Source: Actinomycetota bacterium
GTDB taxonomy: Bacteria > Actinomycetota > Actinomycetes > Actinomycetales > Microbacteriaceae
Assembly: GCA_030838475.1 (NCBI GenBank)
Contig: JAUZFP010000094.1
Location: forward strand, 1-64,000
DNA length: 64,000 nucleotides
Reading direction: 5' to 3'
In this document: positions 56,423 through 59,067 of the stretch, piece after piece
How the letters are laid out: each line of letters starts with the position of its first letter
Position numbering within the stretch: the stretch's first letter is position 1
The notes under the pieces: model-generated
Told to the model about the DNA's origin: nothing
The model's input: only the letters and a program-made list of their open reading frames with translations
Database searches by the model: none
Translations under genes and position numbers: made by a program

Positions 56423-57802
56423 ATGAATAAGTTCTCGCGGCGTTTTGCCGCAGTACTCGTCACGGGCGCACTCGTCGTCGCCGGTGCGACGCTCACGGCC
56501 TCGGCCGCGAACGCCGATTCAATTACCGGCAACATCAAGCTGTTCACAACGGGATCGAATGTCGGCACCATTGCCGCCAAGCAGGTCACCGCTGGCAGCT
56601 CCACCACCAACCCGATGATCTACGGAATCACGGTCGACCAGGCGTGCCCCGCCGGGTTCCGTGGTGCGGCGATCTTCACCGTGTTCCAGGGTGGAGTCAA
56701 GGTCGGAACGCTCGGTTCAACCGGTTTCGTTGCTGACGACGGAGTTGAGGGCACGAACGGCCTCAGCCCCGCCGACACCTCGATCGCGATGGACGAGTCC
56801 TCGACGCTGCCCGCCCAGAACCCCAAGGTGGACAACAACAAGTCGCTCGAGGTTGCGGCACCAACGCTGGCGACAGGCTCGTTCGAGCTTCGTTACTACT
56901 GCGGTGCTGACTCGCTCGGCCAGTTCGACTTCGTGAACGACAAGTACTTCGTTCTGACGTTGAACTTCGACAAGACGGCTCACACCTGGTCGACTCCGGT
57001 TGCCAAGATCAACACCACAACGTCGATCACGGCTTCGGCCGACCAGGTCGCCAAGACCGCGACGATCAACACGCAGATCAAGAACGCTGCCGACGGCACC
57101 AACGCCGCCACGGCAACGGGAACGGCGACGGTCAACCAGACCGCCCCGTCCGCTGCGACGCTCGGCACGGCAACGATTGCGGCCGGTGTTGCAACCTTCA
57201 CGACCGGCTCGCTGTCCCCCGGTGTATACACCTTCACGGTGACCTACGCCGGTGACACCGCGTTCAACGGCTCCATGTCGTCGACCGCAACGATCAGCAT
57301 CAACGGCTCCAACACTGGCGCAACGAACATCACATTCGATGTTCTTGCTGGTGCCAACCCGGGTGGCCTCGTGCTCTCGAATGTCCCGACCTCGGTCGAC
57401 CTCGGCTCCGCCACCTACAACAGTGGCCTGCTGACGGCGAGCAACCCGACGGGCTTCTCCGGCATCACGGTCACCGACAACCGTTCACTGGACGCGGCCG
57501 CCTGGTCGCTCACCGGATCGGTGTCCGACTTCACGGCCGGCGCCAAGACGTTGAGCGGTAAGTACCTGGGTTGGACCCCGTCGCTCACGAGCGGCCCGAC
57601 GGGTGCGGCGGCTGGCGCCACCGTGCTTCCGGCGGTCCAGGCGGCGCCCACCGGCGGCCTCAAGGCGGTCAGCCAGCTGGCGTCCGCCCCGGTCGTTGAC
57701 GGCAGCCCGGTCACCGTTGTGAAGGCTGGACTGAACGTGGCGATCCCGGCGAACTCCGCCACCGGTCACTACTCGGCCCTGCTGACGCTGACGCTTGCGT
57801 AA
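56423..57802 (+). CDS. Secreted protein with Ig-like repeat and C-terminal WxL-like domain
   Basis: Signal peptide to ANA|DS; C-terminal VTDNRSLDAAAWSLTGSVSDFTAGAKTLSGKYLGWTPSL matches the WxL pattern; start at ATG 56423. Confidence 0.75.
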   Translation: MNKFSRRFAAVLVTGALVVAGATLTASAANADSITGNIKLFTTGSNVGTIAAKQVTAGSSTTNPMIYGITVDQACPAGFRGAAIFTVFQGGVKVGTLGSTGFVADDGVEGTNGLSPADTSIAMDESSTLPAQNPKVDNNKSLEVAAPTLATGSFELRYYCGADSLGQFDFVNDKYFVLTLNFDKTAHTWSTPVAKINTTTSITASADQVAKTATINTQIKNAADGTNAATATGTATVNQTAPSAATLGTATIAAGVATFTTGSLSPGVYTFTVTYAGDTAFNGSMSSTATISINGSNTGATNITFDVLAGANPGGLVLSNVPTSVDLGSATYNSGLLTASNPTGFSGITVTDNRSLDAAAWSLTGSVSDFTAGAKTLSGKYLGWTPSLTSGPTGAAAGATVLPAVQAAPTGGLKAVSQLASAPVVDGSPVTVVKAGLNVAIPANSATGHYSALLTLTLA

Positions 57803-57921
57803 CGGAAACTGAGTCACCCCGGGCCGGGGTCGGACGTTCTCGTCCGGCCCCGGCTCATCCGGCGTTCTCGTCCCATCACCACCTATCAACTGCACCCTCG
57901 TAGAAATCTCTGGTCCACATC

Positions 57922-59067
57922 ATGAAGCGCACGCCTTTGGCTCTCGCGGCCGTTCTCGCTCTCGGGCTGGCTCTCGCCCCCGCTCTGTCGGCTGTGGCTG
58001 CCGACGCGCCGCCGAAGGCACCCGCGATAACCTGGAGTGTTCAGGCCTCCGGTCCAACGGGGAACGACGGCCGACTGTCGTTCGCGTACGGCGTCGATCC
58101 CGGCACCGAGATCGACGATTTTGTCGCCGTGTCGAACCGCGGCACGGCCAAACAGACCTTCACCATCTATGGCACCGACGCCATCAACCAGTTCGACAGT
58201 GGTGCATTCAGCCTGCTTCCCGCCGCACAGAAGCCCCACGATGTCGGATCGTGGATCACGACCAAGACAGCCAAGATCACCGTTCCGGCAGGGCAGACCG
58301 CCATCATTCCGTTCACCATCCTGGTGCCCTCCGACGCGACCCCGGGCGACCACACCGGTGGGGTGATCGCCTCCGTGACCACCGCCGCGCCCGGCAAGAA
58401 GAGTGGGGTCGGAATCGACCAGCGCGTCGCCGCGCGAGTCTATCTCCGGGTCTCCGGACAACCCGTTGCCAAGGTTGTCGCGACCGGCGTCGTCGCGGGC
58501 TTCACGCCCGTCTGGAACCCCTTCGGCGGTGGCGGCGCTGCCGTTGACTACGACGTGAGGAACAACGGCAACGTGCGCGAGGATGTTGCCCAGTCCATCG
58601 AAATGAGTGGGCCGTTCGGGATCGGCCTTGGCAAAATCACCGGCAAGCCGCTGCTGAATCTCCTGCCCGGCCAAAGCACACACATCCACGAGACCGTGGC
58701 GGGGGTATTCCCGCTGGTCCTTCTGTTCGCAAACGTCAAGCTCACTCCGAGCGCCCCGACCGATCTCGTCGGTCAGTCGCAGCTGCGTGACCAGAACGGC
58801 AAGCTGCTGCCCGCATCCCCTGAGCCGAAGTTCACGGCAGTGACAACATCCGCGCTGGCGGCTGCAATCTCCTGGACCCTGCTTGCGATCGTCCTGGTGC
58901 TGATTGCGCTCATCTTCCTGATCAGTCGGTATGTCCGCAACACGCGCGAGCGGATGTTCGACGCGATCGACGCCGCCACGGCGGAGGCCCAGCGGGCCGC
59001 GCAGGCGCGGTCGGCGACCCCCGCGAAAGAGACCGTGTCTGCGGGCGCGCCGGAGCCGCGGTCGTGA
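57922..59067 (+). CDS. DUF916/WxL-partner-like exported protein with C-terminal TM
   Basis: ITWSVQASGPTGNDGRLSFAYGVDPGTEIDDFVAVSNRGTAKQTFTIYG...ATPGDHTGGVIASV, C-terminal TM. Confidence 0.8.
   Translation: MKRTPLALAAVLALGLALAPALSAVAADAPPKAPAITWSVQASGPTGNDGRLSFAYGVDPGTEIDDFVAVSNRGTAKQTFTIYGTDAINQFDSGAFSLLPAAQKPHDVGSWITTKTAKITVPAGQTAIIPFTILVPSDATPGDHTGGVIASVTTAAPGKKSGVGIDQRVAARVYLRVSGQPVAKVVATGVVAGFTPVWNPFGGGGAAVDYDVRNNGNVREDVAQSIEMSGPFGIGLGKITGKPLLNLLPGQSTHIHETVAGVFPLVLLFANVKLTPSAPTDLVGQSQLRDQNGKLLPASPEPKFTAVTTSALAAAISWTLLAIVLVLIALIFLISRYVRNTRERMFDAIDAATAEAQRAAQARSATPAKETVSAGAPEPRS

Follow-up and report, generated by a model that had tools for sequence, protein, structure and literature searches.

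A WxL-like protein and a WxLIP partner lie within a Pst-type ABC transporter operon in Actinomycetes

WxL proteins and their DUF916 partners (WxLIPs) form gene clusters regarded as a Firmicutes system linked to gut hosts and virulence; such clusters are defined by a small-plus-large WxL pair, and the transmembrane (TM) helix of the WxLIP has been proposed to enter host membranes (PMC10599100). What could such a pair do in an environmental actinobacterium? The question arises from a 64,000-nucleotide stretch of a Microbacteriaceae genome (contig JAUZFP010000094.1, hereafter the window). From the sequence alone, an original prediction had proposed that a secreted protein with a WxL-like C-terminus is held non-covalently at the surface by an adjacent DUF916-like membrane partner, and had named a profile-profile search against WxL and an interface in co-fold models as its checks. 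Both open reading frames (ORFs) are present with the predicted positions and lengths, and contain the peptides that had been quoted.

The 459-aa protein begins with a signal-like sequence, carries a Big_3_5-like Ig domain at residues 209-293 (Pfam, E 7e-7, below the cut-off) and ends with the WxL-like domain. The Pfam WxL family (PF13731) matched neither this protein nor anything else in the window or in its own genome. For 22 homologous C-terminal domains it was the most frequently matched family, with hits to 11 of them (E up to 1; best 1.8e-5). Because the window protein has no direct Pfam WxL match, we compared profiles. The query profile was built from homologous C-terminal domains collected from other actinobacteria, and the Firmicutes profile from six WxL proteins of Pontibacillus, Companilactobacillus, E. 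mundtii and Niallia. The two matched with a probability of 95.5% (E 1.3e-8), and the Pst-type WxL-like sequences alone reached 92.3% (E 5.5e-7). All controls, comprising profiles of the WxLIP, of PstS-like proteins and of Ig domains as well as five column-shuffled profiles, stayed at or below 1.9%. Judged from these profiles, the WxL similarity of the C-terminal domain is well beyond chance, and this part of the original prediction passed the check named for it. Searches of the PDB with single Firmicutes WxL proteins (phmmer) and with the A3 profile found no significant WxL chain, and 9i25_A was reached only at E 0.43.

The first WxL motif consists of an Asp and an Arg that precede W-x-L (PMC9772566). 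This D-x-R...WxL pattern is kept in the 22 alignment rows, where D58 and R60 are invariant and W67 is nearly so, and the motif 1 Trp is present in 51 of 53 actinobacterial copies; the window copy has one extra residue in this spacing. The second W-x-L motif, near the C-terminus, has L, F, I or V at the Trp position in all 53 copies. The actinobacterial domain is therefore a single-W variant and differs in this respect from the WxL domains of Bacilli. The best PDB fold matches of the domain model (Foldseek) are the chaperone-usher pilins CfaE, CsuA/B and FimG, at TM-scores of about 0.4, which is suggestive, not proof, of an incomplete Ig fold.

The downstream protein matches PF06030 (WxLIP_PGBD) with 29.8 bits, above the cut-off of 27.3, and the same family matches 24 of 25 WxLIP orthologues. 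As in the WxLIPs of Bacilli, a signal peptide, the PGBD, a second beta domain and a C-terminal TM segment are found, and in all 18 WxLIPs examined a single C-terminal TM segment is followed by basic residues. By sequence search, the WxLIP profile matches the EfmWxLIP1 structures 9i1y and 9i25, and the fold alignment to these spans 251-261 columns of 251-267 residues. For a fused WxL-WxLIP model from locus L023, the best PDB matches were the E. faecium WxLIP 9i1y (E 8e-10) and 9i25_C (E 3e-9), the latter a WxLIP 'bound to long WxL'; both alignments cover nearly the whole target. Behind these WxLIP entries, the fold matches of the WxLIP model include the chaperones CfaA, CsuC and EcpB. The claim of a DUF916-like partner with a C-terminal TM segment thus agrees with the family match and the fold match alike. 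Unlike in the clusters of Bacilli, DUF3324 (HBD) was absent from the families listed by hmmscan for the actinobacterial WxLIP, and the Firmicutes PGBD sequence NQIDKxxxYFDLK does not occur in that form in the window WxLIP or in the rows of alignment A1.

A search with DUF916 alone retrieved the family from 83 of 395 sampled genomes of Actinomycetes. Thirty WxLIP loci found in this way were inspected, at least one of which (G261) overlaps the set behind the WxL-like profile. At 26 of them, the ORF directly upstream on the same strand contains a WxL-like domain (E 1e-15 to 1e-46), and the reversed proteins gave no matches. The WxL/WxLIP gene pair is therefore the rule in Actinomycetes. The arrangement resembles that of Bacilli (E. 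faecium locus A, 9i25 and 9i1y; L. plantarum csc), in which a secreted protein with a C-terminal WxL domain and motif 1 adjoins the WxLIP. It departs from it in gene number, since the window and most of the other loci have one WxL gene and one WxLIP gene, not small and large WxL genes. Most actinobacterial pairs lie away from pst genes. In Cellulosimicrobium and Clavibacter plasmids (L054 7115-8957 and L055 7155-8969), for instance, the WxLIP lies beside GH43/LamG genes; the position of a small hypothetical protein upstream of it suggests a WxL-like protein, as does, in L054, a weak tblastn match, and sugar ABC transporter genes are close by, as if the platform also served glycan use.

For the co-fold, the WxL domain and the WxLIP ectodomain of L023 were modelled as one chain in which the intervening stops were read as glycine. 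With a shallow, unpaired alignment, both domains were confident, no confident interface formed and the pTM was 0.53; by our estimate, it would be about 0.53 with the two domains unplaced and about 0.77 with them placed. Binding of the WxL protein to the WxLIP would follow here from homology to the solved E. faecium complex of a WxLIP with a long WxL protein (9i25). The original interpretation as a whole is partly supported. Non-covalent tethering is made plausible by the homologous complex, the sortase homologue without catalytic residues (see below) and the lack of any sorting signal seen by eye in the WxL-like protein or other operon proteins, but the contact itself was not seen in the co-fold.

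The pair belongs to an operon of ten genes for a Pst-type ABC transporter (Table 1), the order of which is pstC, pstA, PstS-like 1, large PstS-related, PstS-like 3, WxL, WxLIP, IPT-like, pseudosortase and pstB. The gene for a 157-aa protein upstream of pstC is probably the first gene of the operon. The pstC ORF is open from 48405, and we set its start by reading at a GTG that overlaps the upstream gene.

Table 1. Features of the transporter operon and its WxL/WxLIP pair, with positions in the window
Feature	Position	Strand	Properties
Small hypothetical protein, 157 aa	48005..48478	+	Overlaps pstC start; conserved upstream of pstC in L021 and L022
PstC-type permease	48468..49481	+	TIGR02138 245 bits (cut-off 196)
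PstA-type permease	49481..50728	+	TIGR00974 211 bits (cut-off 193)
PstS-like protein 1	50725..52470	+	PF12849 1.9e-34; TIGR00975 175 bits, below cut-off (205)
Large PstS-related protein, up to 944 aa	52298..55132	+	C-terminal TM; start uncertain, likely near 52430-52470
GC-rich stem-loop	55175..55209	+	In the gap 5' of the PstS-like 3 gene; strong, no T-run; similar hairpins at the same place in L021, L023 and L024
PstS-like protein 3, secreted, no membrane anchor	55263..56369	+	PF12849 1.8e-4, below cut-off; family alignment conserved
WxL-like surface protein (P0001)	56423..57802	+	459 aa; signal peptide, N-terminal domain, Ig-like domain, C-terminal WxL-like domain
C-terminal WxL-like domain	57305..57799	+	Profile-profile match, alignment, model (alone: pLDDT 90.7, pTM 0.82)
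WxLIP / DUF916 partner (P0002)	57922..59067	+	381 aa; signal peptide, PGBD, second beta domain, TM, basic tail predicted cytoplasmic
Secreted membrane protein	59064..59798	+	Ser/Gly-rich stretch, one IPT-like beta domain, C-terminal TM; orthologues aligned
Sortase homologue (P0004), N- and C-terminal TM segments	59798..60778	+	PF04203 46.1 bits (cut-off 26.6)
PstB-type ATPase	60798..61745	+	TIGR00972 332 bits, just below cut-off (343); Walker and signature motifs intact

The operon shares with PstSCAB systems a PstC and a PstA that exceed their NCBIfam cut-offs, and the RSDGSG motif in PstS-like protein 1. It differs from them because its PstB and PstS score below the equivalog cut-offs, because it encodes three PstS-like proteins, two of them TM-anchored, and because IPT-like, pseudosortase, WxL and WxLIP genes are added. 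PstS-like protein 1 has a C-terminal TM anchor, is by its sequence no lipoprotein, and keeps the ligand motif, of the type RSDGSG[TS], in nearly all orthologues. It has Glu at the position of Asp56 in E. coli PstS. In PstS-like protein 3, Gln replaces the Arg of the ligand motif. A profile of 14 orthologues of the large PstS relative matches M. tuberculosis PstS1 (1pc3, E 5e-10), and six cysteines are invariant in its alignment (A7). The protein encoded between the WxLIP and the pseudosortase had no Pfam match, and 'IPT-like' is our reading of its sequence.

This genome also encodes an ordinary pst operon, on a contig other than that of the window (G000:C87:24-4306, L122); its PstS has a lipoprotein-like signal, and the extra genes are absent from it. 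PHO-box-like direct repeats are not in excess in the window (8 found, 6.0 expected), sigma-70 promoters and intrinsic terminators are no more frequent than in shuffled sequences, and an Rfam scan of the region gave no matches. Directly after the WxL gene (about 57820-57854) there is a second strong GC stem-loop without a T-run, similar in L021; this and the stem-loop listed in Table 1 possibly act in transcript stabilisation or processing.

The sortase homologue resembles class E sortases: PF04203 is above its cut-off, the best NCBIfam match is the class E family NF033747 (61, cut-off 160), and sortase 5go5 is matched with E 4e-8. It is unlike them in its C-terminal TM segments and in its active site, where the catalytic GHR reads GRQ in the window protein. 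The catalytic His and Cys are both absent from all 16 orthologues across the phylum, which have a conserved TADG-like sequence instead. A decayed pseudogene is ruled out by the dN/dS of 0.13 (window against L021), a value below which only pstB falls among the genes computed. Judged by its residues and their constraint, the sortase homologue is a conserved non-enzyme.

How stable is this arrangement across the phylum? The ten-gene order is identical in four other loci (L021, L022, L023 and L024) and nearly so in Streptomyces (L026). Part of the operon is present in Microbacterium album, on a contig that begins inside it. Elsewhere the operon recurs with rearrangements, including in G148 and G245, which belong to another class. 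Using the large PstS relative, we found six operons besides the window's own in 397 genomes of the phylum; three have WxL and WxLIP (G148, G245 and G325) and three lack them (G239, G271 and G287). In G148 and G245, the block of PstS-like 3, WxL and WxLIP lies 3' of pstB. Core operons that keep the pseudosortase and the large PstS relative but have no WxL or WxLIP (L064, L068 and L069) show that the transporter can do without the pair, and they may represent the minimal system. It follows from the operons with and without the pair that the core consists of the permeases, the ATPase, two PstS-like proteins and the sortase homologue, and that the PstS-like 3, WxL and WxLIP genes form a cassette. 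The operon genes for which dN/dS was computed (pstC excluded) gave 0.12-0.36, which indicates purifying selection. On the WxLIP tree, a single origin of the Pst-associated WxLIPs was not rejected (p-AU 0.187), and the Pst-association label changes 4 times against 11.9 in shuffles. Together, the pairs beside GH43/LamG genes and sugar transporters and the operons without a pair argue against a fixed link between pair and transporter and suggest a general nutrient-capture or adhesion platform.

Because the pair is part of a Pst-type operon, its likely role changes from that first read from the two genes. We give slightly better than an even chance to the account in which WxL and WxLIP together form a platform, held non-covalently at the surface, that serves a second ABC importer of the Pst type. 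This account draws on the homologies, the gene order and its conservation, the loss of catalytic residues, the purifying selection and the topology signals observed in the data. For the binding of WxL to WxLIP, the contact with the transporter, the ligand and the role of the pseudosortase, we infer the following arrangement. The WxLIP would sit in the bacterium's own membrane through its C-terminal TM segment, with the basic tail inside, while its two Ig-like domains would be located in the wall zone, where they would bind the WxL-like domain in the manner of the E. faecium complex. The N-terminal and Ig domains of the WxL protein and the unanchored PstS-like protein 3 would thereby be kept near the two anchored PstS-like proteins and the PstC/A/B channel, where they could raise the local concentration of phosphate or a phosphorylated ligand, or pass it on. 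As a non-enzymatic membrane subunit, the pseudosortase would have a structural role. Against this account count the co-fold without a confident interface, the core operons that lack the pair, the absence of a PHO-box excess in the window, the residue changes at the ligand sites of PstS-like proteins 1 and 3, and the position of most actinobacterial pairs away from pst genes.

Alternatively, the pair might be an adhesin or wall-coat module of general use that entered the pst operon for co-expression and takes no physical part in transport; it might, for example, attach the cell to phosphate-bearing mineral or polymer surfaces. The core operons without the pair, its occurrence beside GH43/LamG and sugar transporter genes and at many loci without pst genes, and the Ig-like domain of the WxL protein, typical of adhesins, all fit this explanation. 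Against it, the pair mostly lies between transporter genes across genera, not at the operon end, and the block with PstS-like 3 stays intact even when relocated 3' of pstB (L065 and L066); we regard the explanation as unlikely, though deserving of weight. A smaller share of probability goes to the WxLIP being mainly a secretion chaperone for WxL and not its permanent anchor: until the WxL domain reaches the wall, its incomplete, pilin-like fold would borrow a strand from the two Ig domains of the WxLIP. The fold matches recall chaperone-usher pairs (CfaE-CfaA and CsuA/B-CsuC), with the WxL-like domain similar to the pilins and the WxLIP to the two-Ig chaperones, and a WxLIP strand has been predicted to complete the WxL sandwich (PMC10599100). 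This likeness is weak, however: TM-scores are about 0.4 to 0.5, Ig folds are common, no sequence similarity was found and there is no usher. Moreover, the WxL-like domain model folds confidently alone (Table 1) and the WxLIP, unlike periplasmic chaperones, is anchored in the membrane, all of which makes a chaperone improbable as its main role.

It is also conceivable, if very improbable, that the operon is a sensor and not an uptake system: the transporter would be gated by the large PstS-like protein and the pseudosortase, acting as monitors of a ligand or of the state of the wall. The two proteins are indeed conserved in the core without WxL (L068 and L069), and the constraint on the pseudosortase is strong, but the operon showed no sign of a kinase, a regulator or a signalling domain, and the permeases and the ATPase look intact. 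Finally, the WxL resemblance could be a chance similarity among beta-sandwich proteins, as the missing PF13731 match of the window protein by itself and the absent second motif might indicate. The profile-profile controls, at noise level, rule this out for practical purposes, and half of the homologues match PF13731 directly while the C-terminal placement beside a WxLIP is consistent in 26 of 30 loci; we consider its probability negligible.

A wider proposal can also be made. WxL/WxLIP and Pst are both known kinds of system. Unlike the clusters of Bacilli, the pair is here set in an ABC transporter operon, in a bacterium without a known host. A literature search that covered few subscription papers found no description of a single-W WxL domain, of the two-gene pair of Actinomycetes, of its placement in a Pst operon or of the conserved pseudosortase. 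Tentatively, and at less than even chances, we propose an undescribed, phylum-wide type of importer. It would combine a Pst-like ABC transporter and as many as three PstS-like proteins, and its outer side would be organised by the pseudosortase and, optionally, by a WxL/WxLIP platform that keeps capture proteins in the wall. WxL/WxLIP would then be in origin a scaffold for nutrient capture, not for host adhesion, with the WxLIP TM segment in the bacterial membrane.

A soil-type actinobacterium carries a pair described almost only in gut Firmicutes, and carries it within a second phosphate-uptake operon, next to a sortase homologue without catalytic residues; this suggests that such a pair can work in nutrient capture and not in attachment to animal hosts. 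The pair is widespread in Actinomycetes with one WxL gene and is conserved within a phosphate-type importer of environmental bacteria, which points to the same function. A WxLIP helix in the bacterial membrane would, if true, contradict the published host-membrane proposal, and with the actinobacterial WxLIP, whose helix is followed by a basic tail, the question of which membrane it enters can be tested directly in harmless strains. A second surprise in the operon is the sortase homologue, which lacks catalytic residues and is conserved under strong purifying selection.

We also noted a small lipoprotein-like ORF directly 3' of pstB (61742-62272), which is present in L021 too. Beside the operon end, on the minus strand (62286-63637), a reading of the sequence gives ribokinase-like and lumazine-synthase-like ORFs.
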